Part shown: positions 4,170 through 62,196 of the stretch, piece by piece
Numbering within the stretch: position 1 is the stretch's first letter
How the letters are laid out: each line of letters starts with the position of its first letter
The notes under the pieces: generated by a model
The model's input: the letters and a program-made list of their open reading frames with translations, nothing else
The model's database searches: none
Told to the model about the DNA's origin: nothing
Source of the DNA: Amphibalanus amphitrite
Taxonomy: Eukaryota > Arthropoda > Thecostraca > Balanomorpha > Balanidae
Direction: 5' to 3'
DNA length: 64,000 nt
Assembly (NCBI RefSeq): GCF_019059575.1
Contig: NW_024881625.1
Coordinates: forward strand, 558,001-622,000
Position numbers and translations under genes: made by a program

Positions 4170-5352
4170 TTAACCCGCGCCCGGCTGGGGGTCCTGGATT
4201 TCCACGCCCTGCTGGGGGGGGGGTGTTTGAACACCCCCCTTCTAACTCGGCTCCTGGGCCACGTAGCGATACGCGGAAGGCGGCGTTCGAAAGAGCACCA
4301 AAAATAATGACGAAATCACTTCGGTCATTTTTTTGGTCAGGTCAAAGGTCAGGTCACCAGAGGTCATTGAAGGCAAAATTTCGCCGATTTTCAGGTCGAA
4401 TGTCGACAATTGCCAGGAAGCCAACGCATAACTCGGGAACCAATAAAGCTACAGCGCCGCGGAAAAGCGCATTCGATAGCCCTATTAACGCCCTTTCTGA
4501 GTAATTCTATCAGATTTGACCTAACGTCAACCGTTTTGCCTGCAGGGGGCAAAAACTGCAAAAATAGCCGATTTTTTCGGAAACAGTTTTTCTGCAATAA
4601 CTTTTGACCCAAGCCTTGTACGAGCTTTTTTTTACCAGCATCGTGTTCCTCTCGTCAAGACGCATCGATTGAACTATAACTTGACCTTGAAAGGTCAATT
4701 TGAAAATTTGACCTCACGTCAAGGTCATGACCTGACCGGAAAGGGTCATGTTGCATATCAGTCGATCCGTATCGTCGAGCTGAACACATCTAAGGCGTTT
4801 TCACCGCTCTAGCATGCCTCTATCAAAAGTTATTTGCGAAAAACTGTTAAGACACCATTCGTGACCTGAGATGACCTCAGGGGCATAAATAGGGATCACG
4901 GACATCATTTTCATGTTCAGTGGGTCTACTCTAAACCACTTGTAATTCATTGTTTGGGAGTGTTTATAATGTCTTTCGTCCAAAAGAGGCGCATTTCAAT
5001 TTTCTCCCATTGACTTATAATGGAGAGGTCGCAAAATTGACCTGACCTTAGATCACCGATATCAAAATTCCGAGATATACATTTTATAGATACTGTTACC
5101 CTTATCAATCGCTGAAAGTGTCAAAGCGATCGGTCACTCGGTGTAGCTATGGCAGACATTGAAACTTTTTATGAGGTGAGGTCACTTCAAGTGACCTGGT
5201 GACCTGACCTTGAATGACCTTGGTCTGAAATTTTCACAACATGTGTAGAATTGATGTATGATAAGGTGTACCAAAAACGGCGGCGCATTCGCGAAAAACC
5301 ACAAGGGGGGTGTTCAAACACCCCCCCCCCCCCCCAGCAGGGCGCGGGTTAA
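4170..5352 (+). mobile_element. TTAA element (TGTTTGAACA barcode), complete
   Basis: TTAA at 4170-4173 and 5349-5352; ends CCCGCGCC...GGCGCGGG. The left end repeats GCCCGGCTGGGG/GCCCTGCTGGGG 27 bp apart. Hairpin barcode GGGGGGTGTTTGAACACCCC on the left and GGGGTGTTCAAACACCCC on the right. The subterminal GGCGGCGC hairpin near 5280 has lost its second half. Copies: 14141-15343 and 42965-45296. Non-coding. Confidence 0.87.
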
Positions 5353-5898
5353 TATAGATACAAGTTTATAATGCTCTACTTAGTTGTAACAACTCTTGAA
5401 AATGTATGTTATGTTTTCCAGCAATACTAACAGCCGTCACGTTATTTCAGCCGTCACGGGCTGCCAGTGTCAAGCACCGGTCAATGCACCCGCTCTTTTC
5501 TCCGTACTCTGTCTGGTTGTTATTGTGATTTGTGAACGGTGCAGACTGTAGACAAACATGCACCAAGCCATGGGTGATGCAAACGGTCGTTGCCCTGGGG
5601 CTGCGGGCCCGTCCCAGAGCCGCCGCCGACTCCGCAGACACGTGGCGCCGGCGAGGTGCTGCAGATCCGGCCCCGAACCGGTACCCGGCAGCTGCGCCCC
5701 GAATCACAGCGTCGAGGGCGCGGCTGCTGTCCGTAGGAAGTGGTTAGACATCTGAAGCTTTTCAGATGACTTTTCAGATCTATCAGTACAGTGGATCTCA
5801 GTGGATCCCATTAGATTCCACATGGAAAATTATCAATGAGCTATGACTCCATAGGAACTGACGACAAACTAAGGACGAGGATCTGTGGATCCCACAAC
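5353..5898. other. Non-repeat interval with GC-rich island (5530-5755)
   Basis: The 5530-5755 part is CpG-rich and open in more than one frame on both strands (for example ATG at 5558). It may be an exon or a CpG island, but no family motif or convincing splice pair is seen. The rest is AT-rich and unassigned. Confidence 0.3.
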
Positions 5899-6771
5899 TT
5901 AACCTTCCAGGCGGTGGCGGGGGGCATTTTTTTGCCCCCCCCCCCTTTAGTTTTTTCGATATATCTCGAGAACCGCTGCGCCGATCGGCACAAAACTTTC
6001 AGTACCCTCCCGTGAGTAGCTATTGCACATTGTGACCAAAATTTTTTCCTAAGGCTATGATAGGTTGGACGCTAATGACGTCAGAGTGACGTCATTTCTG
6101 CCATTTTCGACCAAAAAAAAGGTTTCGCGAGAAGAGCTGTCAGGCCTACAGCTTTAGAGATACAGAAAAATGTTTCAGCATAAAAGGCGTAGAATTTAGA
6201 AGGCAACAAAACTGCTATCTCAGATTGTTAAAATTTTTGGATTTTGACCCCCAGAAATCAATAAATATATTTTTTGAATATAGTAGCCGAAAAATCCAAA
6301 AAGTTTTTTTAATTAAAAAGAAAACGGAAGATATGTGATAGTCCCTACCACCTTCTATCTGCATATTAAATTTGAGATCGATACACCTTCTTTAACCAAG
6401 TTATAGCAAAAAACTGTTCAAAATTGATGACGTCAAATTTTCAAACTCAATTTTTAGCAATTCTAGACCTCGTAGCGCAAAACAACGACCACCATTAGAC
6501 TCTTTGTGACGAGCTGCATCGAAACAATACCCATTTTATGCAAAAATATCAACTTTGAAATTTGACCTTTTTTGACCTGACCTTGACCTGACGTCCACCA
6601 GAAAGTGGCCTAAACCGTACCTGATGGTCTTATTACCAACACTATTGAGTTGGAAATAAAAAACTGGCCATATCTTGCTTTATTTTTTAGATCTCGGGGG
6701 GGGGGGGGTTAACCGCCCCCCCCCCGTCGGTTCTAATTTGGTGCATATCTTATCGTCGGTGCGCGGGTTAA
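5899..6771 (+). mobile_element. Chimeric TTAA element
   Basis: TTAA 5899-5902 and 6768-6771. The left end (CCTTCCAGGCGGTGG, barcode GGGGGGCATTTTTTTGCCCC) matches the family at 49604-50559. The right end (GTTAACC barcode, CCCCCGTCGGTTCTAATTTGG, GTGCGCGGG) matches the right end at 27100-27157. The two barcodes differ, unlike in most elements. The interior is related to 47240-48447. Confidence 0.8.
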
Positions 6772-6849
6772 TATAAAGGACATATAGCAGTCTTTGCCAA
6801 AACATTTTTTGCCAGAAGGATCAAAATTTTGTTTCCAATCTCCTGGCGT

Positions 6850-7817
6850 TTAACCCTCGCCGGCCGAGGGGAGAGCTGAAACTTGGCATACCGGACCTTT
6901 GATTCAAGCCAGATCTTTTGACACCAACCGCATTTTCGGGTCAGGTCAAGTCACTGACCTGTCTCGTCATAAGTGAACTTCTGCACGGTCTTCAGATGTC
7001 GCAACTTCGCAACGCCTTCACTGCCAGAGGAGCTTTCACAGGGAAATGAAACTTGCAGGATCCATTATCCATTACGAGTCTCACAGCTTGTATTTCTCGG
7101 ATTTTTCCTAAAGGTCATATGAGGTCAGGTCATTTTTGTGACCTCACCATTATAAGTCAATGGGGAAAATGAAAACTGCTATTCTGGCGCCGGGAACGAT
7201 CTCTAACTATCTCAAGCACACAGAATCGTGATTTGATGCGCTCCTTGCAAGCTTAGTTGCATCACTCTTGCAATGTTGACCTTGCGTGACGTCATTTATG
7301 ACGTCATCAATGCCATATTAGTTTTTCGCCAATGAATCCCGATCCAATTGAGCTAGCGAGACGGGAAAGCCACCAATGGACTCAGGAAGACCTGCCGAAT
7401 TGAATGATATGCGACATGACCTATTTCGACCAACTTCGTAACCTGGGTGCGCTGACCTGACTGTGACCTGAGGTCAACACCCTAAGTTGACCTGGCACAA
7501 ACAAAAAGTACATCATTCGACGCGCCTGAGCAAGGCGAACACGATGCTGACAAAATTGCGGGTCTGCGGCAGTTTTGGCGAAGTTATTTAACAAAAACTG
7601 AATTGTACTTTGGGGCACTTGACCTGACCTCAAAGGTCACCGGTTGACCTAGGACCTTAAAATCTGGTATCGATCTCTGCGTCTCGTAACGGCGCACACG
7701 CTCGTTTTTTCCGCAACGCGCTAGCTTCACCAGGGGCGAAACGGCGAGGGGGGTCGTACCCCCCCCCCCCTTCGGCCGGCGCGTATGTAGAAAACCAATA
7801 GGTCCGGCGAGGGTTAA
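6850..7817 (+). mobile_element. TTAA element, CCGGCC-end family
   Basis: TTAA 6850-6853 and 7814-7817; ends CCCTCGCCGGCC...GGTCCGGCGAGGG. The right end carries the duplicated terminal motif (CCGGCGCG, then CCGGCGAG 28 bp later). Contains the CCATTATAAGTCAATGG core in reverse near 7150, plus GGTCA/TGACC repeats. A diverged relative is nested at about 51290-52130. Confidence 0.82.
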
Positions 7818-7915
7818 AATATTATTCCTAGCGTTACCGATTTTCTTCAATTTCCTTGTAACTAAAACTGTCTTAAGCCACGCCGGCACAGGCCATTTTG
7901 CGTCCTTCGACGGCA

Positions 7916-8773
7916 CAAGGGTTGGTACGAACCCCCCCCCCCCCCCCTCCTCGCGTTTGGCCCCTGATCGAGCTAGAGCTTCGCGGAAAAAACAAGCGTG
8001 TTGCCCGTCACGAGAGAAAGCCGATGATACCCAAGTTCAAGGTCCTAGGGGCTAGGTTATCGGTTGACCTTCCAGGTCAGGTCAATGACCCAAAAGTCGG
8101 TGAAATCGGGACCTGTTAGAAAGTCCGTAAAGTGTGTCCGTGATATAGGGGTTTTCGGGGTGCTGACCACGGATATCGTGTTAGTTCTGATCACAGATGA
8201 TGTCATTGAGCATACTTAGACCAGGTCGGGTCAGGTCAGGTCAGGTCAACCAGAAGGGGTCGTGACGGGTATTCGTAGTACATGCCAACCGCCTCTGACA
8301 GCTTCGTAACATGTTATGAAGGCACCAAAGCTACTTCGTAAATGTTCAAATGGTTGCTAAATTCGAATTCAGCTCCAAAAACTAGCCTGAACATGTAAAA
8401 CTCGAAAAAGTGGACCGAGGTCACCAAAGGTCAATCACCTGACCTGACCTTTAGGTGACCTTGACATCCATCCAAATGCATGGGAGCAACATCAAATCAC
8501 ATGTTTGAACGTTTGAAACCACGAAAAGCTTGGAAGCGCGCGGCTAATGCGAGCCGACATACGCCGAATCGCGATTCCTGCCAAACATGGTCTCGGAAAA
8601 GAGGTTACACGTCAAATGTCGTTTGGGTCAGGGTTATGAAATTTTCAGGGTAGGTGTAAAATTGATTAATGCAATGGTACTGAAAGTTTCGTCGCGATCG
8701 GCCGCTTTTTTGCGAGTTATTCGCGAAGAACCTTAGGGGGTTGCATCAACCCCCCCGTACCGGCGAGGGTTAA
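7916..8773 (+). mobile_element. TTAA element, left end lost
   Basis: From 7926 the sequence follows the CCCGTATTGG family (GATCGAGCTAGAGCTTCGCG and onward). The right barcode is GGGGGTTGCATCAACCCCCC and the end CCGGCGAGGGTTAA (TTAA 8770-8773). The 4x GGTCA array lies near 8225-8250. The left terminus is not recognisable. Confidence 0.7.
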
Positions 8774-9383
8774 ATAGCCCCACCCTATTAGGCTATTTGA
8801 GACAGGCAGTTAAGTAATTTTGTAATACAACCTTGGCAAACAACTGTTGTTGTGGTAGTATATACCTACTGCCTTGCGCGCAACATTTGTCGCACTTAAT
8901 TAAAGAGAAAATAAAGTATTGCTTCTAAACGGTGTCATAAAAACATCGGAGGCTTCACCTCAGGTTACAACATCAAATCACATGTCACAAATCACAAATC
9001 ACCCCCCAAGAAAAAAAATGTTTAAAAAACAGTGAATATTTTTCGGTGAAATTTGACAGATATTCATTTTCCCTCTTTGAGAACTTTGTGAACCCTTTTA
9101 AGGTGGGAGGGTCTTTAAGTGTCCCTTTCAGTTATGTGGGGAGGGTCGAACGGACCCCTCGGTTTTTGAACATATGCCATCTTCGGTCGAAGCTCCCAAT
9201 ATCACGCCATTAAAACCTCGATTTCTAAAAAAAAACGAGCAGTTTTTATCTTAGGCCCAATAAAATTGAATCTATGTTAACTATGTGATATGGTGGCATA
9301 GAGTATGGTGCAGAATGGTGGCATAGCATAGCAGAATGGACGCCGGGCCGTCCGTACATGTCTGAAGCGCCGATGCCGCTCAT
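8774..9383. other. Unassigned AT-rich interval
   Basis: No ORF, terminal repeat or RNA gene is recognised. A short direct repeat GAATGGTGGCATAG occurs at about 9290-9330. Confidence 0.4.
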
Positions 9384-9386
9384 GTA

Positions 9387-10202
9387 GAGGAGACCGGGGG
9401 GAAGTGGGACATTATTTTGACGTCAACTTTGAAAAATCGTAAAAAATAGAATAGGTATTGAAGATTTAAGTAAATTGATTGAATTTACTGGTAAACAGTT
9501 TATTTCTACTTCATTCTTTACTGTTTTTATGCGTGTTTGTTCACGTGTTACTTCTCAAATTTAAATTTTAGGAAAGGTTGACAATGGGGTGAACTGGGAC
9601 ACGTCCAGAAGTGGGACAAATGATGGGGAGAACTGGGACTGGTCAAGAAATGTGATTTAAATGAAATACAATTAAAATTTGATGACCCATCACAAAGAAG
9701 AAGGTGTTTTAATAATTGACACTTAAAGAAATCACATCGATTATCTTTTTTGAACTACACTGACAGCACTGAGTATCTTGGAACATTTTCCCGTGCATTT
9801 GCATGCGGGAGAACTGGGACAAGGTTTAGGCACGTTATCCTTGTTCTCCCCAAGTCGTCATTTTTATTTCAATTGCTCTCCCACACAAAAGTATAACAGA
9901 TACATAAAAAATGTTTCTGCATAATTAAGATGACTTCACTGACATCCAAAGGTGAACGGCCTGAACATTTCACATCGCTGAGTAAACGGCCAATTAAATT
10001 AGAGTACAATGCTAAAAAAATCACATTTTAGACCCCAACTCAATATCTCAGACGGGCAACCGGAAAAGGAAACCGCTGGTTGTGACGTGCCCCGACTAAA
10101 TTCATGAGAAAATATGCAAAAACAAAATTGTTTGTCCAATCGGTCATCCAGATATTGAAGGTGTCCCACTTCTCCTCCGTCCCAGTTATCCCCACTCTCC
10201 CC
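9387..10202. mobile_element. TA-flanked MITE with GTGGGACA/CTGGGACA motifs
   Basis: Flanked by TA (9385-9386, 10203-10204) with inverted ends GAGGAGACCGGGG... and ...CCCCACTCTCCCC. AAGTGGGACA/AACTGGGACA motifs recur at 9405, 9595, 9612, 9630, 9810 and inverted at 10160-10190. Non-coding. TA duplication suggests a Tc1/mariner-type or similar enzyme. The element at 53117-54963 has similar ends. Confidence 0.65.
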
Positions 10203-10235
10203 TACATACCTACCTACCCTGCTCCGCCGATGCAG

Positions 10236-10439
10236 GCCTATGCTGGGACCATGACACCGGTGGCCGTGCAGGCCACTGCCCGTTGCGGCCCGCGGGTCAC
10301 CTTGGCTAGACAACAGCCGGCCGGCAGCCGCCCCGCCGACAACACTGCAAACGGACACGGCAGGCTGCCAAGGTCGTCTCTGAACGGGACACTGGCCCTA
10401 GCTCATAGCAACGACGCTAACGGTTATCTTCAGAGATAA
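10236..10439 (+). CDS. Candidate terminal exon of an unidentified gene
   Basis: A possible acceptor (TGCTCCGCCGATGCAG) is followed by 67 GC3-rich codons and TAA (AYAGTMTPVAVQ... ending NDANGYLQR). An AATAAA lies at 10619-10624. The composition differs from the neighbouring repeats and resembles the sulfotransferase exons. No domain is recognised; the sequence is low-complexity (Ala, Pro, Asn, Arg). No upstream exon was found. Confidence 0.35.
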   Translation, partial: AYAGTMTPVAVQATARCGPRVTLARQQPAGSRPADNTANGHGRLPRSSLNGTLALAHSNDANGYLQR

Positions 10440-10742
10440 ATTACGTCTATGTCCATGCATAACTACAGAACTGTGGAGAGGGAACAGTGAGGTACGGGGC
10501 AAGTCGATCCACTCACTGTTCCAAGCAAGCAATACGGTTAAAATTACACATGGGTCGTATCGGTATACACGCATGGGGGGGGGGGAGGTCGGATGAGCCC
10601 CTTGTTTTTTTTTTCGCGAATAAAAACAGTCAATTGCGTCAAGACATGCAATACCCTCGAATTAATAAGATTACACATACTCCGAACATTTCATGACCCT
10701 GACCACAATAACCTTTGATATGTGAACCCATCGGTGCGCAGG

Positions 10743-10930
10743 TTAAGAAGTTTTGGCTGGAAGGTCAACCAATGACTTACGAAGTTACAAGAGAAGACAA
10801 CACGCTCATTTTATCCGCGAAACCAAAGCTCAATAGGGGGCTGAACGCCTGGGGAGTCCGTTGGACTCCCCCCCCCCCGACCCGCCCCCCCCGTAAGTAG
10901 CGGCTAGCAAAACGCCAATACGGGCAACTA
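10743..10930 (-). mobile_element. Inverted fragment of the CCCGTATTGG TTAA family
   Basis: A terminus GTGCGCAGGTTAA (TTAA 10743-10746) abuts a reversed left-end fragment: GGAAGGTCAACCAATGAC, ACACGCTCATTTTATCCGCG, a GGAGTCCGTTGGACTCC barcode and AACGCCAATACGGGC. Both termini have decayed. It looks like the junction of two rearranged elements. Confidence 0.6.
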
Positions 10931-11065
10931 ATTGGCGGAAGTGCCCTTCTTCTTATGTGTAGAATGAGAGGATAAGGGGAGAATGTGGGCTGCGATTCGG
11001 CTGGTTAGGCCCCAAGTCACCTTGTATCACGTCGCCATGTCATGTTAGCCCTATAACTGGCTAAG

Positions 11066-11833
11066 TTAACCCTCGCCCGTATTGGTGTTTTGCCAGCCGC
11101 CAACGCATAGGGGTGGGGGGGGGGGGGCGTCCGTTAGGCCTGCGTCCGTTAGACCTCCCCTTGCCGTTTGGCCCCTGATCGAGCTAGCGGAAAAACGAGC
11201 GTGTCGCCTTTAACGAGAGAAAGCCGATGATACCCGAAGGTCCTAGTTCAGTGGTTGACCTTCCAGTGGGCAGTTTTACCAACATAAAAATATCATGTTA
11301 GTGTTGATCACAGATGCTGTATTCATGCATTTGAACAGGTCGGGTCAGGTCAGGTCAGGTCAGGTCAACCAGTAGGGGTGCTGCCGGGTATTCGTAGGTG
11401 TCACCTTCTGGCATCTTCGTACCATGTTACGAAGGTACGAAAGCTACTTCGTAAATGTTCAAATGGTTGCTAAATTCGAATTCGTCTAAAAAAACTAGTA
11501 TAGAAACATGTAAAATTCGAAAAAGTGAACCAATGCATGGGGGCAACATCATATCACATGTTTGAACGCTTGAAGCCACGAAAAGACTGGAAACGCGCCG
11601 CCAATGCGAGCCGACATGCGCCGAATCGCGATTCCGGCCAAACATGGTCTCGATAAGTAGATCACAGATCAAAGGTCAGGGTCAGGGTCATGAAATTTTC
11701 TGGGCAGGTGTAAAATTGAATAACGCGAGGGTACTGGAAGCTTCGTTGCGATCAGCTGCTTTTTACGCGAGTTATTCGCAAAAAAAAACTGAGGGGGTCC
11801 GTTCGACCCCTCCCCCATACGGGCGAGGGTTAC
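11066..11833 (+). mobile_element. TTAA element, CCCGTATTGG family
   Basis: TTAA at 11066-11069. The right end GGGCGAGGG is followed by TTAC (11830-11833), a decayed site. Barcode GTCCGTT on both sides. The GGTCA array lies at about 11337-11368. Shorter than copies at 18775-19653 and 20572-21488, mainly through internal deletions. Confidence 0.8.
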
Positions 11834-11938
11834 CATGTCCCTTAATGATCGAACTTACAAAATACAAATTATCAGCAACAGGTGCTTGCTGGGCCACCCC
11901 GTCGGCACCAGGAGTGCGGAGGCCCTTTCAAATGCCCG

Positions 11939-13126
11939 TTAACCCGCGCCGTGCTGGGGGGGGGCGTTTTTACGCCCCCCCCCCTCAGGTTTTTCGCGAA
12001 TATCTCAAAAACGGCGGCGCGCAGCGCCGCCGTTTTTGGTACACGTGTTCCTACATCATTTCCGCACATGTTGTGAAAATTTCAGACCTAGGCCGTTCAA
12101 GGTCAGGTCACCAGGTCACGTCAAGTGACCTTACCTCAGAAAAAGTTCAAAGGCTCGCTATAGCTACACCGACTGAACGATCACTTTGAAACTTTCAGCG
12201 ATTGATATGAGTAACAGTATGTATAAAATGTATATCTCGGATTTTTGATATCTGTGACCTAAGGTCAGGTCAATTTTGCGACCTCTCCATTATAAGTCAA
12301 TGGGAGAAAATTGAAATGCGCCTCTTTTGGACGAATATCGTTCAAAACGCTCTCAAACATCGGTTCATAGGTAAACATGACACACTGAATAGGAAAAATG
12401 CACCTGTGACCCCTCTGTGTGCCCCTGAGGTCATCTCAGGTCATGAACGGTCGCCAGCAGTTTTTTTGCTATAACTTTTGATAGAGACGTGCTAGAGCGG
12501 TGAAAACACGTCAGATGTGTTCAGCTCGACGATACGGATCGACTGATATGCAACATGACCCTTTTCGGTCAGGTCATGACCTTGACCTGAGGTCAAATTT
12601 TCAAAATGACCTTTTAAGGTCAACAAATAGTTCATTCGACGCGTCTCGACGAGAGGAACACGATGCTGGCAAAAGTAATGTCATGGCGCTTATGAGTCAA
12701 AAGTTATTGACGAAAAAACGTTTTTCGTAAAAACGGCTATTTTAGGAGTTTTTGCCCTCTGGAGGCTAAACCGTTGACCTGAGGTCAAATCTGAGAACAT
12801 TACTCAGAAAGGTCTGTAAAAGGGCTATCGAATGCGCTTTTCCGCGGCGCTGTAGCTCTATCGGTTCCCGAGATAGCCGTTGGCAGTTTCCAAAATGTTG
12901 AAATAGTCAACATTTTACCTTTGGTGACCTCTGGTGACCTGACCTTTGACCTGACCCAAAAAATGACCGAAGTGTTTTCGTCCTTATTTTTGACGCTCTT
13001 TCGATTGCCGCTTACCGCGTGTTGCTACGTGGCCCAGGAGCCGAGTTAGATGGGGGGGCGTGAAAACGCCCCCCCCCCCCCCAGCACTCGGCGGAAAGTT
13101 CAGGCCACCAGCACGGCGCGGGTTAA
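11939..13126 (-). mobile_element. TTAA element (CGTTTTTACG barcode), inverted copy of 59816-61002
   Basis: TTAA 11939-11942 and 13123-13126. Barcode GGGGCGTTTTTACGCCCC at one end and GGGGCGTGAAAACGCCCC at the other. The complex end is on the right (CAGCACTCGG repeated as CAGCACGGCG 27 bp on). Nearly identical to the copy at 59816-61002, which is in the opposite orientation, so recent activity is implied. The perfect hairpin is at 12007-12037. Non-coding. Confidence 0.88.
12007..12037. repeat. Subterminal GGCGGCGC hairpin
   Basis: AAAAACGGCGGCGC and GCGCCGCCGTTTTT form a perfect 14-bp stem with a 3-nt loop (GCA). The same hairpin is at 15239-15269 and 60904-60934, and variants at 21555-21573 and 26103-26121. 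It resembles an intrinsic terminator, but in an animal genome is more likely a structural element of the transposon. Confidence 0.85.
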
Positions 13127-14140: not shown

Positions 14141-15343
14141 TTAACCCGCGCCCTGCTGGGGGTCCTGGATTTCCACGCCCTGCTGGGGGGGTGTTTGAAC
14201 ACCCCCCCCCTTGTAACTCGGCTCCTGGGCCACGTAGCGATACGCGGAAGGCGGCGTTCGAAAGAGCGTAAAAAATAATGACGAAATCACTTCGGTCAAT
14301 TTTTTTGGTCAGGTCAAAGGTCAGGTCACCAGAGGTCATTGAAGGCAAAATTTCGCCGATTTCCAGGTCGAATGTCGAAAATTTCCAAGAAGCCAACGCA
14401 TAACTCGGGAACCAATAGAGCTACAGCGCCGCGGAAAAGCGCATTCGATAGCCCTATTAACGCCCTTTCTGGGTAATTCTCTCAGATTTGACCTTACGTC
14501 AACGGTTTTGCCTGCAGGGGGCAAAAACTGCAAAAATAACCGATTTTTTTCGGAAACAGTTTTTCTGCAATAACTTTTGACCCAAGCCTTGTACGAGCTT
14601 ACTTTTACCGGCATCGTGTTCCTCTCGTCAAGACGCATCGAATGAACTATAACTTGACCTTGAAAGGTCAACTTGAAAATTTGACCTCAGGTCAAGGTCA
14701 TGACCTGACCGGAAAGGGTCATGTTGCATATCAGTCGATCCGTATCGTCGAGCTGAACACATCTAAGGAGTTTTCATCGCTCTAGCATGCCTCTATCAAA
14801 AGTTATTTGCGAAAAACTGTTAGATACCATTCGTGACCTAAGATGACCTCAGGGCATAAACAAGGGTCACGGACACCATTTTCAAGTTCAGTGTGTCTAA
14901 ACCACTTGTAATTCGGTGTTTGGGAGTGTTTATAATGTCTTTCATCCAAAAGAGGCGCATTTCAATTTTCTCCCATTGACTTATAATGGGGAGGTCGCAA
15001 AATTGACCTGACCTTAGGTCATCGATATCAAAATTCTGAGATATACATTTTGTACATGCTATTGCTCTTAGCAATCGCTGAAAGTTTCAAAGCGATCGGT
15101 CACTCGGTGTAGCTATGACAGACATTGAAATTTTTTATGAGGTGAGGTCATTTCAAGTGACCTGGTGACCTGACCTTGAATGACCTTGGTCTGAAATTTT
15201 CACAACATGTGTAGAATTGATGTATGATAAGGTGTACCAAAAACGGCGGCGCTCCGCGCCGCCGTTTTTGAGATATTCGCGAAAAAACCACAAGGGGGGG
15301 GGGGTGTTCAAACACCCCCCCCCCCCAGCAGGGCGCGGGTTAA
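14141..15343 (+). mobile_element. TTAA element (TGTTTGAACA barcode), complete
   Basis: TTAA 14141-14144 and 15340-15343. The left complex end repeats GCCCTGCTGGGG 27 bp apart; barcode GGGGTGTTTGAACACCCC left and GGTGTTCAAACACC right. Closely collinear with 4170-5352 and 42965-45296. It keeps the hairpin at 15239-15269 that those copies have lost. Confidence 0.88.
15239..15269. repeat. Subterminal GGCGGCGC hairpin
   Basis: Perfect 14-bp stem (AAAAACGGCGGCGC / GCGCCGCCGTTTTT) with a 3-nt loop (TCC). Sister copies have lost half (near 5280) or all (near 45220) of it. Confidence 0.85.
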
Positions 15344-15973: not shown

Positions 15974-17838
15974 TGTTGTTGTTGTTGTTGTCGTTCCGGC
16001 CGTCGGGCCCGGTGGGCCCACATGGGGGGGCCCGTGAGGGCCCCAGCCCCCCTCGGGGGCGACACTTGCGACGTCCGCGCAGGGAGGGCAGCAGGCCCCC
16101 GGGCGGGTTCCGGCGGACTCAGACGCCGGGTAGGGCCGGAGAACCCAGCACCCCGCCAGAGTGTCCAGCGCCGTGGGCGCTCTATAGTCGGCCCAGGCGC
16201 CGCAGGAACTCGATAACCCGGCATGGGTCAGCGAAGACCTCCCGCAGCGTCGGGTCCTCTCTTCCGAAAACGTCGTGACGGACGCGGGCCGTCGCGGGGC
16301 ACGACGTCAGAAAGTGTTCCGCGTCCTCCCTGACTCCGCCGTCGCAGGTCGGGCACCCATCGTCCTCCTCCGCCCCGATGAAGTGACGGTAAGCTTGCAG
16401 GGCAGGAGAGTGGCCGGTCCGGAGGCGCGCCAGAGCGGTGCCCTCTCTCCTAGACAGGCCGAGCCTGTCTGCCAGCCTGACCCTGCCCGGGCCGACGACA
16501 TCGTGGTAGTCGTGGCTTAGGTGCGGGCGGGTCGCGGGCGCCGGTCGGGAGTGGCGCGTGCTCTCCACCCACTCTCTGCTCACGTGGCGCTTCAGCAGGC
16601 TCTTGGCCGCCGCGAAGGTGATGGGTGTCCCGTCCTGCGGCAGCTCAGCGGCCTCCCTGGCCACGGCATCGGCGATCTCGTTGCCGGCGACTCCCGCGTG
16701 ACCGGGAACCCACTGAAGGTCCACGCGGTGGCGTCGTCCTAGTCGCCGGAGGGATAGCCAGACTTGGTCAGCGACCCGTTCAGTCTGGTTGGCCGGGCCT
16801 TCCCTCAGACGCATGAGGGATGATAGGGAGTCGGTGCACAGCTGGATATTGAGTGCAGGGTCTTGATCGGTGAGGATGGACTCGATGTATTTGAGTGTCT
16901 CTCGTAGAGCGAGAAGCTCCGCTGTGTAGCTCGACGTGAAGCGCCCCGCTGGCGCTCGGATCCTCTTCACTTCCCTGCCGCTCCTATAGACGACTGCCCC
17001 TGCTCCGCCTCGTTCTGTGCCGGCTGTGGCCGAGCCGTCCGTGAAAGCCTGGACGTCCGGGTTCGGCAGTCCGGCTAGCGTCTCCTCGGCGGCAGTCCGT
17101 CGCTGTTCGGCGGGGGCGTTTTGCGGTAGCGGCCTCACAAGTCCAGTGTGGAAGAGGACCGTTGGAGGTGGCGGTGACTCCCAGGGAGGGGTGCTGGCAA
17201 CCACCAGGAACGGCTCGCGTGGGAAGTCGTCTAGGCCGGCGTCTTTGGATATCTCTTGGCCCGTCCGTGCCCATCCTCTGTCATAGCGCAGACGTTGCCG
17301 GGGGCGGTTCTCAGGGAGGAGGATCCGCTGCACAGGGTCGCCTGGTAGGTCCCGGGAGTGGCGCTCCATCGCCACAGCCGCCAACTGCCTCCGCCGCGCC
17401 GAGAAAGGCAGGAGATCCGCCTCTCTGGCCAGGGCGTCCACTGGTGTGGATCTGACACATCCGGTGATTGTCCTGCACCCCTGTCTTTGCACCGTTTCCA
17501 GCTCCCTCAGGCCAGACTCGCTGAGGCCGGGCATCCAAGCACCGGCGGCGTAGTCGGCGCAGGCGCGAGAGAAGGCGAGATATGTGCTGCGCAGATCAGA
17601 CGGTGAGCAGCCTTACGTCGTGCCGCTGATGGCCCGGAGGACGTTGTTCCTTTGGAGCATCTTGGCCTTGATCGTCTTCACATGTCCCGTGAAGGTGAGG
17701 CTCCTATCGAGGGTGATGCCCAGGAACGTCGTGGTGGGGGAGAACTTCACTGGTTGGCCCTGGAAATGGAGCGCCGCTTCTCAGTTCTCGCCGTGCCTCA
17801 GCTGGGTCAAGCGTGAAGATAGTGGAGGTAGTCTTCTC
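15974..17838 (-). mobile_element. 5'-truncated I-like non-LTR retrotransposon
   Basis: Flanked by a perfect 12-bp duplication CTCTTTAACGAT (15962-15973, 17839-17850). On the minus strand it runs from inside the reverse transcriptase (5'-truncated at 17838) through RNase H and a Cys-His motif to a stop at 16182, a 3'UTR and a (CAA)n tail next to the left target copy. An RNase H domain and a trinucleotide tail fit the I/LOA-type clades. Confidence 0.88.
16182..17838 (-). pseudogene. Non-LTR ORF2 C-terminus: RT thumb, RNase H, Cys-His motif (two stops)
   Basis: One frame covers the region, with stops at 17783-17781 (TGA) and 17615-17613 (TAA). Both stops fall where relatives have Trp. The upstream part reads TTTFLGITLDRSLTFTGHVK, the end of the reverse transcriptase. 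The longest open part (17534-16182, 450 residues) carries RNase H: FTDGSAT, the TAELLALRE Glu, CTDSLSSL and WVPGHAGVAGNEIAD supply the catalytic acidic residues and the late His. Near the C-terminus is CPTCDGGVREDAEHFLTSC, the C2HC-like motif usual after RNase H in this clade. The N-terminal endonuclease and RT core are absent. Plus-strand ORFs here are shadows. Confidence 0.9.
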
Positions 17839-18774: not shown

Positions 18775-19653
18775 TTAACCCTCGCCCGTATTGGTGTTTT
18801 TCCAGCCGCGAACGTATAAGGGGGGGGGGGGGGGTCCGTTGGATCCCCCTTGCCGTTTCGCCCCTGATCGAGCTAGAGCTTCGCGGAAAAAACGAGCGTG
18901 TTGCCCGTGACGAGAGGAAGCCGATGATACCCAATTTTAAGGTCCTAGTTCATTGGTTGACCTTGCAGGTCAGGTCAATGACCCCAAAGGCGGGAAAATC
19001 GGGACCAGTTAGAACGTCGTAAAGTGTGGCTGCTATGGGGGTTTTCGGGGTGCTGATCACGAATATCATGTTAGTTTTGATCACAGATGATGTCTTCATG
19101 TATTTAGGCCAGGTCGGGTCAGGTCAGGTCAGGTCAACCAGTAAGGGTATTCGTAGTAGGTGGCAACTGCCTCTGACAGCTTCGTAACATGTTACAAAGG
19201 CACTAAAACTACTTCGTAAATGTTCATATGGTTGCTAAATTCGAATTCAGCTCCGAAAACTGGCCTAGAAACATGTAAAACTCGAAAAAGTGAACCGAGG
19301 TCATCAAAGGTCAATGACCTGACCTGACCTTCAGGTGACCTTGACACCCACCCTAATGCATGGGGGCAACATCATATCACATGTTTGAACGCTTGAAACC
19401 ACGAAAAGACTGCAAACGCGCGGCTAATGCGAGCCGACATACGCCGAATCGCGATTCCAGCCAAACATGGTCTCGAAAAGTAGGTCACAGGTCAAAGGTC
19501 ATTTGGGTCAGGGTCATGAAATTTTCAGGGTAGGTGTGAAATTGATGAACGCGAGGGTACTGAAAGTTTCGTCGCGATCGGCCGCTTTTTACGCGAGTTA
19601 TTCGCGAAAAACCACGGGGGGTCCGTTCGACCCCCTATACGGGCGAGGGTTAA
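18775..19653 (+). mobile_element. TTAA element, CCCGTATTGG family, complete
   Basis: TTAA 18775-18778 and 19650-19653; ends CCCTCGCCCGTATTGG...CCCTATACGGGCGAGGG. The left complex end has CGTATT then CGTATA 26 bp on; barcode GGGTCCGTTGGATCCCC left, GGGGTCCGTTCGACCCCC right. GGTCA x4 at about 19118-19138. Lies just beyond the sulfotransferase poly(A) signal. Confidence 0.88.
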
Positions 19654-19902: not shown

Positions 19903-55139
<35,237 letters not shown>

Positions 55140-55300
55140 GCTTGGCCGGCGGAGCAGCGGCCACGGGCCGCCTACCTACAGTCACCGCGCCGTGCCCGCT
55201 CCGAGTGGCCACTGACCAGGCCCCGTCACCCGGACCAGGTGGCGCGGCCGTCGGCTTACCGCCCCAGGGCAGGCGTCAGACGGACTTTACCAAAGGGCAT
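55140..55300 (-). promoter_or_regulatory. CpG-rich 5' region of the sulfotransferase gene
   Basis: GC-rich, CpG-dense, non-repeat DNA immediately upstream of the start codon, unlike the AT-rich flanks. It probably holds the 5'UTR and promoter. A second CpG-rich patch follows at 55440-55620; it contains GACCATGGCGGCTG|GTAAGG on the plus strand, which could be a YY1-type site or a tiny divergent first exon. No TATA box is evident. Confidence 0.45.
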
Positions 55301-55439
55301 TGACCTCTATTAGTAAGGTAATTATAGCTTTTAAAATAGTAGGGATATGCGAGATGACGTTCTCATTATCAATGCATAACTTCATTCCAGTAGCCAAATC
55401 AGTCCCTTGCATTTCTGCATTTCTCGACCTGCCAACGGT

Positions 55440-55620
55440 GACCATGGCGGCTGGTAAGGCCCCCGGCGGTTAGTGGTAGCGCCACCTACACTGAAGGTCG
55501 GCGGATCCCGAGGCCACGGGCCGGCCTGGCCCGACCGTGGCGGACGGGCCGGGGAGCGGGCGGCAGGGGTGGGGAGATGTATCCGGGGACAACGGGCAGC
55601 ATTGCACTTTACAAACAAGG
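55440..55620. other. Second CpG-rich island upstream of the sulfotransferase gene
   Basis: CpG-dense non-repeat stretch. It may be an alternative promoter or 5'UTR exon of the minus-strand gene or a divergent promoter. Short ORFs on both strands have no recognisable domain. Confidence 0.35.
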
Positions 55621-55839
55621 TTCGTATAAAACACTTTGTAGTTTGCCTGGAGTATCCGCGGACCGCGAGTCATTTTAAGGCAGGCGCGACGTTACTCAAA
55701 TATAACTTGCTTTTAATTGGAGAGTTGGTAGGGAAATTAAGGCATTTGCGCGTTGCTCATGGACTAGCCCTCTGTTTTGGAATAACACCCGGTAATGATG
55801 CCCACAACTGCACTGCTAGCCTGCTTTTTTGTCTATTTT

Positions 55840-56978
55840 AGGTATACATAGAAATGTTTGAACGCCTTGCTAGCCTAAATTTGTTCGTAATTCTTACGAT
55901 TTGTATGAAGTGCCGACCTCCAAAGGAATAGTCCTTTCGAGAGCTGATACTTGCGTCCGGCTTTTAGTTAAAAAAATAACACCCATTGTATTTATAAGTA
56001 TTGCTGATTTAACAACAAAGTAAGCTGAAAATTTCCATTACATTGCCTTTGTGTAGATGAAAGAGAGCAACCACCAGCACACACGTCTAGATGATCCCCT
56101 CACAGCCTCCACACTGCTGCCCATTGCCCAAGGACCGACCGTAACATTTGTGTGCCATAAAATGGTACAACGGCGTCTTTCATCAGGCGGACCCCAATGC
56201 GCGCGCCACGCGGACCGTCCAAAATCGAAAGGTTGGTCCAGGAAGACTGACGCAGGGCTTAGCTGATTTTGTATGGTCTGACTTGGGTCTGACACAAGCT
56301 CTATAAGCATTGTTAAACCATCAGTTCAATCGTTTTGAGCTGACATCGCGATTTAAGTATAAGGGCTAGCCATTAGTCTATCCCAGATGCAGAAATAACA
56401 AATACACCCTTCGCATTTGTTAGCGGCATTCGTGATAACTGCGGTTCAAAAGCATGAAACACAACATAAACACAACCAGTCTTCCAATGGATATTGTTGG
56501 GTCCAGATGGCAGAAAGTTTTTGGAGGTATAAAAGGAACACTCCCCCAAAAGCAGCTCCAAAATCCAAAATATTCTGTTTCCACTTTTTGATCCTTTTTG
56601 AGCTTTCGAACAGTAGCGGCAGAACACCTTAAATTAAGGGGTGGGGAAGGGGGGGATGCCGACTTTTAGTCCCATTTTTTTCCATACAAGCGCTAATGTT
56701 AAATTCCAAAATCAAGGGGGGCACGGTGCCCCGGTGCCCTCCCGCCCCTCCCCGTTCCGCTGCCTATGCTTTTGAAAATATTTCACCTTTTATCTACCAA
56801 AACTTGATTGTCTTTCAAAGCCAGAATATTGTAAAGGTTGTATAAATAAGGGCTTCGTGTACTGCTCAGCTAATAAAAGTTTGCCATTTGCCTGGAGACA
56901 GAGACAGACGCTGTCTCCAACTGTATGCCAGCTTATACAGTTGGAGACAGCGTAGACATTTTTTCACCTCTGACCGGA
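55840..56978. other. Mostly unassigned interval
   Basis: A candidate frame at 56057-56266 has no motif. A short inverted repeat, CTGTCTCCAACTGTAT / TACAGTTGGAGACAG, lies at about 56910-56950. Confidence 0.35.
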
Positions 56979-57150
56979 GGGGCGGCAGAATCTGCCTTCC
57001 CACCTACTTGTCTTCCGCGAAATCTTGAAAACGGCGGCATGCAACCTGGCGAACCTGGCTTGCATTCGCACATAGCACGTCTTGTGTGCAACTTTTGACC
57101 CCCTAGCCCAAAAGGTCAAGTCCCGAGGTGAGGTCAAAGTCCGAAACATG
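56979..57150 (+). mobile_element. Remnant related to the GCAGAATCTGC TTAA family
   Basis: Contains the barcode GGGGCGGCAGAATCTGCC, then a CGCGAAATCTTGAAAACGGCGGC stretch and GGTCA words. No termini remain. The same barcode is intact at 60999-62196. Confidence 0.55.
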
Positions 57151-57368
57151 CGCAGTGCGCACCTTCACAGCTCAAGGACTGTAGGTACCTTTTGTTCATT
57201 GTTTTCGTTCAGACGATACAGGCCAACGCAACATGCATGTCAAATTTCTGGATTTTCGTTATCTCAGTCCTCAGGTACTGGCGGATTCCGTAGTTATATG
57301 CAGCGCAAGCCTTCATCATTTTACGCTAAACGCACACACAACCAACCTCTAAACCGTGGCCGCCGCCA

Positions 57369-57510
57369 TTAACCCGCGCCGGGCCGCTTATTCGCCAAGT
57401 GTATTACACGAATCGGCCGACCAATAGCGTGCCTCTTGAGTGACGTCAACGTGGCGTCATACGTTCGGTCCTCGCCCTTGGTGGCGTCTATTGAAGCTAG
57501 GTTTTAACTT
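57369..57510 (-). mobile_element. Short TTAA-type fragment with GCCGGGCCGC end
   Basis: TTAA 57369-57372, then CCCGCGCCGGGCCGC and sequence matching the inverse of 35725-35866. It lies directly before another element. Confidence 0.7.
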
Positions 57511-57518
57511 AACGATAT

Positions 57519-58708
57519 TTAACCCGCGCCCCACTGGGGTCTGTGTATAACACGCCCTACTGGGGGGGGGGGGGGCTATTCATAGCCCCCCCTCCTAACT
57601 CCGAAACTACTGGGCCGATCGTCAAAATTCAAACGGCGTCTGATAGCCCCGGAAAAACTGTCGAGCGAAACCTAATTTCATTGACCTCGAGGTCACCGAT
57701 GACGTCACAGGTCAGGTCAAAGTAAAAATTATTAGCATTTTCGCTTGTTCACATTTTGGGCTCTGGCCGCCGTCTTACAAGTCAGATCAGGCTCATTTTT
57801 GGTTTCCACACTCGTGAACAGATTCTCTAGCTACCTTGAGGGTACCAAACTTGTACTTTGATTTTCAGGTCAGGGTCAGGTCATCACAGGTCACGAAAAT
57901 ATTATACCATGCGTCGGTCACGTGACACATGTTTTATGGTCCATTTAGGCCATAGATTTCGAATTTGATGTCGTCTGTGTCATTCGAGGTCATTTTGAGT
58001 CGAATTTAGCTTAGGTCAGGTCACTTTCAGGTAAAAAAGGGTCAAATTTTGAAGTTAAAATTTTTCAACTAAAAAGGTGTCTATTGGATGCAGTTTGAGC
58101 TCAGAAACACGATGGTGCCATTTATATTGGTGTACGATGTCAAATACGTACTGAAAAATTTATTTGAAAAATCAATAATAGTGAATTTTTTGCAATAATG
58201 CGTATAACTTGGCCATTCTTGAAGATATTTAGCTAAAACTTGCTAGAGTTAGTCATAATCATGCGTTCTGTCACATATATTCCGGTTTTTTCGAAAAGTC
58301 AAAAACTTTTTGAGAAAAATATAAAAATATAAATTTTGAATATTATTATATAAAATTTTCAGAATTTTCCAAATTTTGAAAATCCGAGATTGCAGTTTGA
58401 TAGCGCGGTCAATTCTGAGCTCTTTCATGCAAAGAAATTGGATCTAGCTTAAAAACTGAGCTCTTGGGAGCGATTGCCGTGGTTCAATGTTTTGCGTCGA
58501 AATCGGCCGAACATGACGTCACTCTGACGTCATTTCCGGCCGACCTATGGTAGCTACGAAGTTCAAATTTTGACACAAGGTGTCAAATTGATGCAGCCGA
58601 AGGTACTGAAAGTTTGGCGTCGATCCGTCGAGCGGTTTGGAAGTTATTGCAGAAAAACGGGAGGGGGGGCTATAAATAGCCCCCCCCCCCCAGTGGGGCG
58701 CGGGTTAA
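57519..58708 (+). mobile_element. TTAA element (CTATTCATAG barcode), complete
   Basis: TTAA 57519-57522 and 58705-58708; ends CCCGCGCCCCACTGGGG / CCCCAGTGGGGCGCGGG. Barcode GGGGCTATTCATAGCCCC left, GGGGCTATAAATAGCCCC right. The left complex end repeats CCACTGGGG/CTACTGGGG 27 bp apart. Confidence 0.88.
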
Positions 58709-58725
58709 GCTGACCGACATGCGTT

Positions 58726-58797
58726 GTCGCCATGGCGAAGTGGTTAGAGTATCGAACTGGTGATACGGAGGTTGGTGGTTCGAATCCACTCGGCGAC
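58726..58797 (+). tRNA. tRNA-like gene, imperfect cloverleaf (anticodon possibly GGT)
   Basis: Acceptor GTCGCCA pairs with CGGCGAC apart from the last pair; A box TGGCGAAGTGG and B box GGTTCGAATCC are perfect; the T arm is GGTGG-TTCGAAT-CCACT. The D stem is poor and the anticodon stem has an A-A mismatch (loop CTGGTGA would give GGT, Thr). It could be a decayed tRNA or a SINE head; it starts 18 bp after a TTAA element. Confidence 0.6.
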
Positions 58798-59815
58798 TTC
58801 AATTCTCGTGTCCTCTGTCATTGTGCGTTTTTTATACATTTGCAACGGCGTGCACCTAAGAAATCAGAGGTAAGTATTCTTCTAATGAACATGTTGCATA
58901 AGAGAAATATTTGCAGCCCAACCGATCGGTTCGGTTTCGGTATTTTCCTATGGTTTTGGTTTGTATTTGGTTTGGTATCGGTGTTCTGATTTTCTGTGAT
59001 TGACGTCACTAATGCATAGTGCATACTATGCGAACGTAGCCAACGAAAAGACAATTGGTGCTGGGCGATGGCCATTGATCAATATTTCTCACTGCCAATG
59101 GGTGATAGCATGCAGCTCCTGCTGGATATGACAGGGGCGGCATTGACCTTTTGAAAGTAGGTGGGCACTTGGCAAGGTATTAGGTAAAGTACCTACCTAC
59201 CTAAAAGTAGCGAAAACTAAGATGAAAAGTAAAAAATCGGACGGTGGTTAGCAGGCTATTAGATAGCTTTTCGTGTAAGAATCACCATGTACAAAAAAAA
59301 AAAAAACATTTCGGCATAGCTGTTAGCGTATCACGGGACGAAATTCTCAATTTCCAGCCGTCTAGGAGCGTCATCTAAAGGAGCAATGCCCTCTAACTAT
59401 AGCTTTTGCGTATCTGCCGCCAGGGGGATGAATCCCCTTAGTTGGAATCAAGTTGAAGTCAAAAATATTCATATTAGACGTATGTATATGAAGGTAACTT
59501 GGGGCTGATTGTTAAGTTGCATGCTCACGGCGGGCTGTCATCGATTTATCTCTATACATGTCTAATCTGATCGATGAAATAATACAGGAATCCGTTGTCA
59601 TTCGAGTGTGTTTCATAAAAGCTCTTCCGACTTTGACGAATATCGACAGTGCGGTAACAAAATTGGTAATTCGGGAACAGACTGCAATCAAACTGCAGCC
59701 AGTTTTTTGCAACTTATTCCTTAATCAGATGAATACTTGTCATATATTTATTGGGCGTACGATATTGGCGTGCGAACGTAGAGGCCAAAAATGCGTGTCT
59801 ACGACCGACTTCTTT
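58798..59815. other. Unassigned interval
   Basis: No convincing gene or repeat boundary; a GGTTTCGG/GGTTTGG-rich stretch lies at 58930-58985. Confidence 0.4.
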
Positions 59816-61002
59816 TTAACCCGCGCCGTGCTGGTGGCCTGAACTTTCCGCCGAGTGCTGGGGGGGGGGCGTTTTCACGCCCCCCCCCCGTCTAACTCGG
59901 CTCCTGGGCCACGTAGCGACACGCGGTAAGCGGCAATCGAAAGAGCGTCAAAAATAAGGACGAAAACACTTCGGTCATTTTTTGGGTCAGGTCAAAGGTC
60001 AGGTCACCAGAGGTCACCAAAGGTAAAATGTTGACTATTTCAACATTTTGGAAACTGCCAACGGCTATCTCGGGAACCGATAGAGCTACAGCGCCGCGGA
60101 AAAGCGCATTCGATAGCCCTTTTACAGACCTTTCTGAGTAATGTTCTCAGATTTGACCTCAGGTCAACGGTTTAGCCTCCAGAGGGCAAAAACTCCAAAA
60201 ATAGCCGTTTTTACGAAAAACGTTTTTTCGTCAATAACTTTTGACTCATAAGCGCCATGACATTACTTTTGCCAGCATCGTGTTCCTCTCGTCGAGACGC
60301 GTCGAATGAACTATTCGTTGACCTTGAAAGGTCATTTTGAAAATTTGACCTCAGGTCAAGGTCATGACCTGACCGAAAAGGGTCATGTTGCATATCAGTC
60401 GATCCGTATCGTCGAGCTGAACACATCTGACGTGTTTTCACCGCTCTAGCACGTCTCTATCAAAAGTTATAGCCAAAAAACTGCTGGCGACCGTTCATGA
60501 CCTGAGATGACCTCAGGGGCACACAGAGGGGTCACAGGTGCATTTTTCCTATTCAGTGTGTCATGTTTACCTATGAACCGATGTTTGAGAGCGTTTTGAA
60601 CGATATTCGTCCAAAAGAGGCGCATTTCAATTTTCTCCCATTGACTTATAATGGAGAGGTCGCAAAATTGACCTGACCTTAGGTCACAGATATCAAAAAT
60701 CCGAGATATACATTTTATACATACTGTTACTCATATCAATCGCTGAAAGTTTCAAAGTGATCGTTCAGTCGGTGTAGCTATAGCGAGCCTTTGAACTTTT
60801 TCTGAGGTAAGGTCACTTGACGTGACCTGGTGACCTGACCTTGAACGGCCTAGGTCTGAAATTTTCACAACATGTGCGGAAATGATGTAGGAACACGTGT
60901 ACCAAAAACGGCGGCGCTGCGCGCCGCAGTTTTTGAGATATTCGCGAAAAACCTGAGGGGGGGGGGCGTAAAAACGCCCCCCCCCAGCACGGCGCGGGTT
61001 AA
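59816..61002 (+). mobile_element. TTAA element (CGTTTTCACG barcode), complete
   Basis: TTAA 59816-59819 and 60999-61002. Left complex end with GTGCTGG repeated 27 bp on; barcode GGGGCGTTTTCACGCCCC left, GGGGCGTAAAAACGCCCC right. Nearly identical in inverse to 11939-13126, including the 27-bp complex end. Hairpin at 60904-60934. Confidence 0.9.
60904..60934. repeat. Subterminal GGCGGCGC hairpin
   Basis: AAAAACGGCGGCGC / GCGCCGCAGTTTTT with loop TGC; one mismatch in the stem compared with 12007-12037. Confidence 0.8.
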
Positions 61003-62196
61003 CCCGCGCCCCGCTTGGGGGGGGGGCAGAATCTGCCTCCCTCCCGTTTTTCGCCAATAACTTCTAAACGCGTTACGCCAGCAACGTCAAACTTTCAGTA
61101 CCTTATCATACATCAATTAGACACGTTCCCTGAAAATCTGAACGAAATCCGTCGGAAATTTTTTGAGAAATTGACGTTTTAGTGACGTCATGTTCGCCAT
61201 TTTCGCCTAAAAAACGGCAAAATTTCAAACGCCGCTAACATCTTCATTTTTAAAGGAATCAAGACGTAACAAAAAAGGTTATACGTGATTCTACTTTGTC
61301 TATCAAATGGCTATCTCGGTTTTTTGAAAATTTTGGATTTTGGCCCAAATTTTTTCAAAAAACTGACTTTTGGGCAATTGATTATAAAATCCAAAATTTC
61401 GAGTTTATCGAAAAAAACCGGAATATATGTCAGAAAAGTGGTCTATGTGCACCTACATACCAATTTTTAGAAGAATCGGTTCCAAAATGTGGGAGTTATT
61501 CAAAATTTTATGACGTCACAACATACAAAAATTTTGAAAAATGATTTTTTTGGAAGTTATAGACCTCCTACGGAAACAAAAATAGCACCATTACATTCGC
61601 CGTGAAAAACTGCATCAGATAGACACCTTTTTAGGCCTTAACAACCAACTTCAAAATTTGACCTCACTTGACCTGACCTCGACCTTAAATTCATCCAGAG
61701 GTGGTCCATATCACTTATTGAGTGTGCCTATTGAATTCTATGAGTAAAATGACCAATAAAACATGTGTCACACATGCCCTTTTCTATATTTTGTTTTTGG
61801 TGACCTGACCTGACCTGACTTAACCTTGACCTTGACCTTTGAATGACATTGTATGCAACGAATATTGTCTTGGTAGTCTAAGTACACGTTTTGGGCAATC
61901 AGGCTCAGTCCATTCTTCGGCAACTACGGTGCAAAGCCGATACTGTAGAAACTTGCATTTTGTACCCTTGACCTGACCTTGACCTGACCTTGACCTGACC
62001 TCTGACCTACTTAAGCAAAAAATCAAAAGAATTTTGGGCTCTTAAGATCCGCCTTGTTGAGAGCTTTCGATTGCCGTTTTCCCCGTCTTTCTACGACCAT
62101 CGGTTCGGAAGTTAGACAGGGGGGGGGGGGGCAGAATCTGCCCCCCCCCCCCAGCAGGGCGCGTATGGCTGAATAGCCCAGCGGGGCGCGGGTTAA
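60999..62196 (+). mobile_element. TTAA element (GCAGAATCTGC barcode), sharing a TTAA with its neighbour
   Basis: TTAA 60999-61002 (shared) and 62193-62196; ends CCCGCGCCCCGCTTGGGG / CCCAGCGGGGCGCGGG. Barcode GGCAGAATCTGCC on both sides. The right complex end repeats CAGCAGGGCGCG/CAGCGGGGCGCG 27 bp apart. Interior shared with 21485-22668. Confidence 0.88.

Follow-up and report, generated by a model that had tools for sequence, protein, structure and literature searches.

The 64-kb window analysed here (C128:558001-622000, the whole stretch of DNA) from Amphibalanus amphitrite contains TTAA-flanked elements in which a terminal motif occurs twice at one end, about 27 bp apart, and once at the other. 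It is very probable that these elements are piggyBac transposons of the Trichoplusia ni (T. ni) type, mostly non-autonomous, and that the 27-bp offset sets the geometry between two transposase dimers. Those in the window are non-autonomous and mostly 0.9-1.2 kb long. They show the TTAA target-site duplication and the CCC tip which a T. ni-type piggyBac requires. The motif is at about bp 7 of the end having one copy (the left end), and at bp 7 and about bp 34 of the end having two (the right end). In the 807,550,619 bases of the genome scanned, the tip sequences TTAACCCGCGCC and TTAACCCTCGCC gave 34,222 and 35,530 exact matches, as compared with 60 and 57 for the reversed patterns. What is said below of the papers cited by PMC number refers to excerpts of them.

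The spacing was re-measured at all 16 positions listed in an earlier note on this DNA, by comparing bp 5-15 of each end with the end itself, ungapped, at every shift from 9 to 59. The terminal motif recurs at every one of them, with a score of at least 8 of 11 at 15 positions (18779 scores 7). The shift is 27 at nine positions, 26 at four, and 28, 29 and 32 at one each. The earlier note had counted 27 bp at ten positions; eight of these are indeed at 27, whereas 48443 and 57523 are at 26. Its range of 26-28 for four others was correct (7813, 28; 18779, 26; 41564, 26; 53473, 27), and so was its range of 29-32 for 6767 (29) and 27153 (32). At 41564, shift 27 is one base poorer than shift 26. It should be noted that the best shift per cluster can move by one base with the stretch compared: for the element at 41560 it is 26 on bp 5-15 and 27 on bp 7-15. 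The values of 29 and 32 look like single-copy indels, because a third copy of this ACCGACG family (L061:2880) has 27 bp. Two repeats were absent from the earlier list, namely those at 42965 (27 bp) and 40166 (49 bp, i.e. 27 plus a 22-bp tandem duplication). The motif repeat of 20572 and 11066, relatives of 18779, is within noise when taken alone (6/11 at 26). As a control, 464 other TTAA half-sites of the window were scored; two, one and three of them reach 8/11 at shifts 26, 27 and 28, respectively. Twelve of the 35 window ends reach at least 9/12 at one shift or another, ten of them at 26-27, and shuffling of the inner sequence gave a mean of 2.1.

The repeat is confined to one end. To pair the ends, similarity over their first 15 bases was used, a criterion independent of the repeat, and each end was afterwards called single or repeated from the position of a hairpin. 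A strict hairpin rule was used, since a looser one (C-run of 3 or more) took the spacer of the outer copy for the palindrome and produced 15 false single/single pairs. The motif score alone separates single from repeated ends incompletely: it is just 5-6 of 10 at 7/42 repeated ends, and several single ends score 7 of 10 at shifts 29-35, owing to the C run. In each of the 15 paired TTAA-CCC[GT]CG elements of the window, the motif is repeated at just one end, as judged by rule in 14 of them and by eye in the other. In the larger sample of 48 pairs, taken from the window and the fetched loci rather than from the whole genome, 42 are single/repeated by the hairpin rule. The remaining six comprise two other kinds of element (window 36235-39652 and L011), one mispairing (C1173:2896 with 7128, the true mate at 3155 being a single end), and three pairs with one hairpin unreadable by rule (L067, L082 and window 6850-7814), for which inspection by eye gives single/repeated. 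Among the 48, no true member pair has two repeated ends, and none is without a repeated end. The one-sidedness claimed in the earlier note was seen in 42 pairs by rule and in three by eye, without a counterexample among true members, and neither families with random spacing nor duplications equally often at both ends, which it had named as grounds for refutation, were found in the window and the fetched loci.

A sample not chosen for the repeat gave the same picture. It consisted of 30 loci around TTAACCCGCGCC, taken in order from the first 1.1 Mb of contig C1. A recognisable end is present at 28 of the 30 tips. At 13 of them the match at shift 26 or 27 is at least 9/12; at L067, where the inner copy is truncated, it is 7/12; and the other 14 are, by eye, single ends in which the hairpin follows the motif directly. 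L059 and L060 show neither end pattern. Where both ends are present, one is single and the other repeated, in 18 pairs by rule and two by eye.

In the hairpin behind the inner-facing motif copy, a short loop specific to the family separates a G run from a C run. The centre of this palindrome is at bp 23-33.5 in single ends (44 ends) and at bp 50.5-78.5, with a median of 56.5, in repeated ends (45 ends); seven of the 96 paired ends have no hairpin readable by rule, four of them in the two unrelated pairs. After removal of the G-run length, the offset of the palindrome between the two ends of an element has a median of 27.0 and quartiles of 26.4-27.5 (42 elements). This means that the palindrome is shifted by 27 bp as well; in other words, the whole block of motif and palindrome is displaced inward, leaving an additional motif at the tip.

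The 56 repeated ends fall into 21 clusters, of which 18 were kept for the offset counts. Those dropped are L083:598, which is spurious, and the two ACCGACG-family variants at 29 and 32 bp, each of them an indel in a single copy. With shifts of 26-28 allowed, the best shift is 27 in 13 clusters, 26 in three and 28 in two. The mean self-match of bp 7-15 over the 18 clusters is 6.72/9 at shift 27 and 1.6-3.9 at all the others between 9 and 45. The match of outer to inner copies is 7.5/9 within a cluster and 3.8 between clusters, a result which none of 20,000 permutations equalled. The two copies therefore change together, and the distance is kept. The statement in the earlier note that the spacing is conserved and the motif differs by family holds in all 18 clusters, between which the motifs have turned over.

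Such a repeat might be produced by recent local slippage, that is, by a functionless duplication of the tip made independently in each family. Slippage does occur in these elements, as is seen from the 22-bp tandem duplication at 40166 and from C1726:7069, which is four bases longer than its relative at 7814. However, independent slips would vary in length, whereas the clusters are distributed as 13, three and two over 27, 26 and 28; they would hit either or both ends, whereas the member pairs seen have the repeat at one end only. The approximately 15 bases between the motif copies are not repeated, which is also contrary to slippage. This origin is regarded as very improbable.

The spacing might also be history rather than a present-day constraint, if the right end of one ancestral piggyBac was duplicated and simply inherited. 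The layout and the clade are common to T. ni piggyBac and the present families, in agreement with such inheritance, and the near-uniform offset of large families could come from recent spread alone. In the CTGCTGG family (4,110 exact matches), 98 of the first 100 matches listed are at 27 and two at 26; in the CCACTGG family (1,834 matches), 99 of the 100 listed are at 26 and one at 25, where the pattern allowed 9-39 in both cases. Because these copies are related and possibly young, the figures indicate homogeneity within a family and are not independent evidence. Contrary to pure inheritance, the motifs have turned over between clusters with outer and inner copies in step. The offset can mutate, as single copies at 29, 32 and 49 bp demonstrate, yet every one of the 18 clusters is at 26-28. 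Furthermore, a change of the offset costs activity at the bench in T. ni piggyBac: a 5-bp insertion into the right end, or randomisation of its second motif, each approximately halves transposition (PMC7351741). Pure inheritance therefore seems unlikely. The recurrence of a one-sided offset of 27±1 bp in about 18 clusters with unrelated motifs argues for selection on the offset and for a functional second binding block.

The genome contains at least 116 matches to PF13843 (piggyBac transposase), and genes of this kind lie inside elements with the ends described above in C44, C1173, C702 and C33. The copies in C44 and C1173 extend from TTAA to TTAA with the transposase gene and are 99% identical over 3,985 columns; the single end is 5' of the gene, and the repeated end is 3'. 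The same orientation is found in C702, where another element is nested in the 3' part, and in C33. Thus, in 4/4 elements, from three families, with a DDE_Tnp_1_7 transposase between such ends, the repeated end lies on the 3' side of the gene. The 5' ends in C44, C702 and C33 read approximately GGTTTTT just inside the palindrome. Many single ends of non-autonomous elements read likewise, and we therefore regard the single end of these elements as the left one. Duplication of TTAA is not exclusive to piggyBac, so that these ends might have been made by another TTAA superfamily (e.g. Kolobok), with the piggyBac genes as bystanders. The position of the PF13843 genes inside the elements makes this extremely unlikely.

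The transposases group with T. ni piggyBac. Among solved structures, the closest to L031 (in C44) is that of T. ni piggyBac (E 1.2e-73), as compared with 7.3e-31 for piggyBat. In a tree of 29 locus open reading frames (ORFs) and the T. ni and piggyBat fragments, obtained from one FastTree run, L028, L031/L032, L034 and L040 are placed with T. ni piggyBac with a support of 1.0; the four lineages alone have 0.966, and piggyBat comes next with 0.987. All three transposase families with resolved one-side-repeated ends belong to this group. L028, L032, L034 and L040 terminate in CxxC-CxxC-CxxH-CxxC, the T. ni cysteine motif (PMC8086355). The earlier note had brought in piggyBac as an analogy; the likeness is real, but it is more than an analogy, the transposases being grouped with T. 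ni piggyBac itself. The 27-bp repeat is absent at both ends of 11 resolved elements, from seven families, outside the T. ni clade. Among the resolved cases, the layout of the ends thus follows both the clade and the type of zinc finger.

Other piggyBac genes of the genome may be mentioned here. L014-L024 are eleven genes in separate locations, each with a 604-aa frame and with equal or almost equal scores; they form a family which has spread recently and does not belong to the T. ni clade. L001 and L027, which do not belong to it either, have a palindrome in the 5' end, centred at bp 24.5. Near the tip of the 3' end, L027 has no palindrome and L001 has a weaker one at bp 41.

From work on T. 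ni piggyBac, the following arrangement may be pictured. The core of a catalytic transposase dimer would bind the motif at both tips, where it would cut and join, and the two cysteine-rich domains of this dimer would bind the left-end palindrome. A second, non-catalytic dimer would occupy the inner right-end motif and the palindrome; by analogy, the inner right-end copy probably seats it. The 27-bp offset would set the geometry between the two dimers, and a left/right pair would synapse best. Like ends would pair poorly, since only a left/right pair would offer the right set of sites. Motif and palindrome would drift with the transposase of each family, and the offset would stay within a base. 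The suggestion of two transposase contacts, made in the earlier note, fits the proposal for T. ni piggyBac, in which a catalytic dimer is at the tips and a second, inner dimer is on the right-end block (PMC7351741). Its placement of both contacts on one DNA face did not stand. The distance of 27 bp corresponds to 2.57 turns at 10.5 bp per turn, which means that the motif copies are not on the same side of straight DNA, and clusters at 26 and 28 exist too. Same-face binding was rejected, as the copies face roughly opposite sides in straight B-DNA. It should be noted that the cysteine-rich domains bend the DNA (by approximately 40 degrees in T. ni), so that the face cannot safely be argued from the sequence alone.

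Several points weigh against the assignment to T. ni-type piggyBac with two dimers. The spacing is inherited within a cluster, so the independent evidence amounts to about 18 clusters and not to thousands of copies, and the 18 clusters may themselves have a common ancestry of the end. The clade placement comes from a single FastTree run. Both ends are resolved in only three autonomous families (four elements). One of these, C702, is a single copy with an inserted element; in another, the 5' end of C33 is unsupported by the sister copy C257, which is common only from 3068 on and supports the 3' end and the gene. The end comparison leaves out the clade member L028, several further loci and, outside the clade, the lineage L033/L037/L039/L041, which could also carry the repeat. 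As to the protein, the cysteine motif was not found in the 11 other tails scanned, but L025 and L036 may stop before the domain; the L031 frame has no cysteine motif at its end, and the cysteine-rich tails of 60-70 aa alone matched no solved structure. Finally, the two-dimer model is a proposal of its authors (PMC7351741), and a solved T. ni-type complex with both ends was not met in the excerpted literature.

The asymmetric layout is already known, as is the idea that it matters, and the elements are not a new kind of transposon. The earlier note knew of no description, but the same 27-bp layout occurs in T. ni piggyBac and is described in PMC7351741, where the asymmetry is termed 'puzzling' and 'enigmatic'. 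In the excerpted literature, such asymmetry is found in T. ni piggyBac and, differently built, in piggyBat. What is new here is the breadth, in that 27±1 bp is kept in about 18 clusters with unrelated motifs. Neither this nor the tracking of the layout with clade and zinc-finger type was met in those excerpts; we do not claim either as unpublished. We are inclined to regard the right-end offset of the T. ni type as a fixed ruler, with motif and palindrome free to change and an extra binding block kept 27±1 bp inward at the 3' end only. If this is true, about 18 natural piggyBac end types having separate specificities and one geometry exist in one genome, and with them the need for asymmetry in piggyBac ends could readily be tested. 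The natural spacing variants of 26, 27 and 28 are material for the two-dimer model. For annotation, the repeat tells which end is the right end, and to which clade the missing transposase belongs.

Elements and unpaired ends of this type in the window. The strand is that of the element read from its left-type (single) to its right-type (repeated) end.
Feature	Position	Strand	Ends
Element, TTAA to TTAA	4170..5352	-	Repeated (right-type) end left, shift 27; single (left-type) end right
Unpaired repeated end, ACCGACG family	6720..6771	+	Shift 29; copy elsewhere 27
Element	6850..7817	+	Single end left (hairpin unreadable by rule); repeated end right, shift 28
Element	11939..13126	+	Single end left; repeated end right, shift 27
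Element	14141..15343	-	Repeated end left, shift 27 (11/11); single end right
Element	18775..19653	-	Repeated end left, shift 26 (7/11); single end right
Element	20572..21488	-	Repeated end left by hairpin position, weak motif repeat (6/11 at 26); single end right
Element, TTAA common with neighbour	21485..22668	+	Single end left; repeated end right, shift 27 (11/11)
Element	23740..24650	+	Single end left; repeated end right, shift 27
Unpaired repeated end	24997..25050	-	Shift 27
Unpaired repeated end, ACCGACG family	27106..27157	+	Shift 32; copy elsewhere 27
Element	40166..41369	-	Repeated end left, extra 22-bp tandem duplication (shift 49); single end right
Element	41560..42718	-	Repeated end left, shift 26 (27 almost equal); single end right
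Element, other TTAA repeat inside	42965..45296	-	Repeated end left, shift 27; single end right
Element	47240..48447	+	Single end left; repeated end right, shift 26
Unpaired repeated end (flank TTAT)	53469..53520	-	Shift 27
Element	57519..58708	-	Repeated end left, shift 26; single end right
Element	59816..61002	-	Repeated end left, shift 27; single end right
Element, TTAA common with neighbour	60999..62196	+	Single end left; repeated end right, shift 27

At 21485 and 60999, and also at L032:3478, a single TTAA is common to two abutting elements, as if one had entered the target duplication of the other. The hexamer AGGTCA, the textbook half-site of nuclear receptors, occurs 250 times in the 17.9 kb of the 15 elements (4170-62196), i.e. 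at 14 per kb, where 8.5 copies are expected from first-order composition; the rest of the window has 2.7 per kb. Adjacent direct copies tend to overlap by one base (49) or to be separated by 4 (24). The copies in the 15 elements are kin by descent. The autonomous elements in C702, C33 and C44 have 7.0, 6.6 and 2.5 per kb, and six piggyBacs outside the clade have 0-1.5.

The window contains other repeats. A stretch of TTAA-CCTAAACACATATCC is present at 977 and 44302, each within larger inverted repeats (821-1386 and 44137-44662); the copy at 44302 is inside the element 42965-45296. A TTAA-flanked fold-back at 36221-39669 has 832-nt arms that are 100% complementary, with a second, perfect inverted repeat of 506 nt inside, and an ORF in it resembles GIY-YIG, under the curated cut-off (E 0.0015). 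A 476-aa open frame at 16185-17612 on the minus strand, in the part of the window with the highest GC content, has an RNase H domain (E 5.5e-19); this is perhaps a retrotransposon remnant. An array of approximately 275 copies of the GA dinucleotide occupies 26146-26690, in keeping with the strong skew there.

Among known systems, the coral CMITEs (PMC2872659) are likewise abundant non-autonomous elements linked to piggyBac. A one-sided motif duplication goes unmentioned in the excerpt. The Myotis lucifugus piggyBat (PMC11707139, PMC13405395) shares the TTAA target, asymmetric ends, modules of motif and palindrome and a tetrameric synapse. In contrast to the present elements, its left end has the motif every 44 bp (bp 11, 55 and 99), its right end has no matching palindrome, and its cysteine-rich domain is of another fold. 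The piggyBat-type layout (PMC11707139, as excerpted) was not found in the elements seen here, which have one module at the single end and palindromes at both ends. The other piggyBacs of this genome, with CCCATTA, CCCAGATCTGCCC, CCCAGGAACGCCC and CCCTTTA tips, share TTAA, CCC tips and PF13843 and, in two cases, the 5'-end palindrome at bp 24.5, but they are outside the T. ni clade, lack the 27-bp repeat (11 elements, 7 families) and gave no T. ni cysteine motif.

The closest system is T. ni piggyBac, whose lopsided end layout was described by Chen et al. 2020 (PMC7351741); PMC10140906 gives its subterminal repeats as 3 and 31 bp from the two tips. The likeness to piggyBac named in the earlier note is borne out in the T. 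ni right end (oligonucleotide in PMC7846023), where bp 7-18 are repeated at a shift of exactly 27 (12/12) and the palindrome centre is at bp 53. The left end as given in PMC7351741 has no such repeat; its palindrome at about bp 25 is taken from that paper, since our palindrome scan did not score the left end. The sequences of motif and palindrome are unrelated to those found here, where the stems are G and C runs of variable length. Moreover, offsets of 26 and 28 also occur here, the tips number tens of thousands, and the elements seen are mostly non-autonomous. With T. ni LE35/RE63 (left end, LE; right end, RE; PMC7351741), the present elements share the TTAA target, the CCC tips, the motif at bp 7 and the inner right-end motif at bp 34. 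The palindromes are near bp 25 (LE) and bp 53 (RE), and the repeated end is 3' of the gene, i.e. on the RE side. The CxxC-CxxC-CxxH-CxxC domain is common to both, and T. ni piggyBac is the closest transposase with a solved structure.

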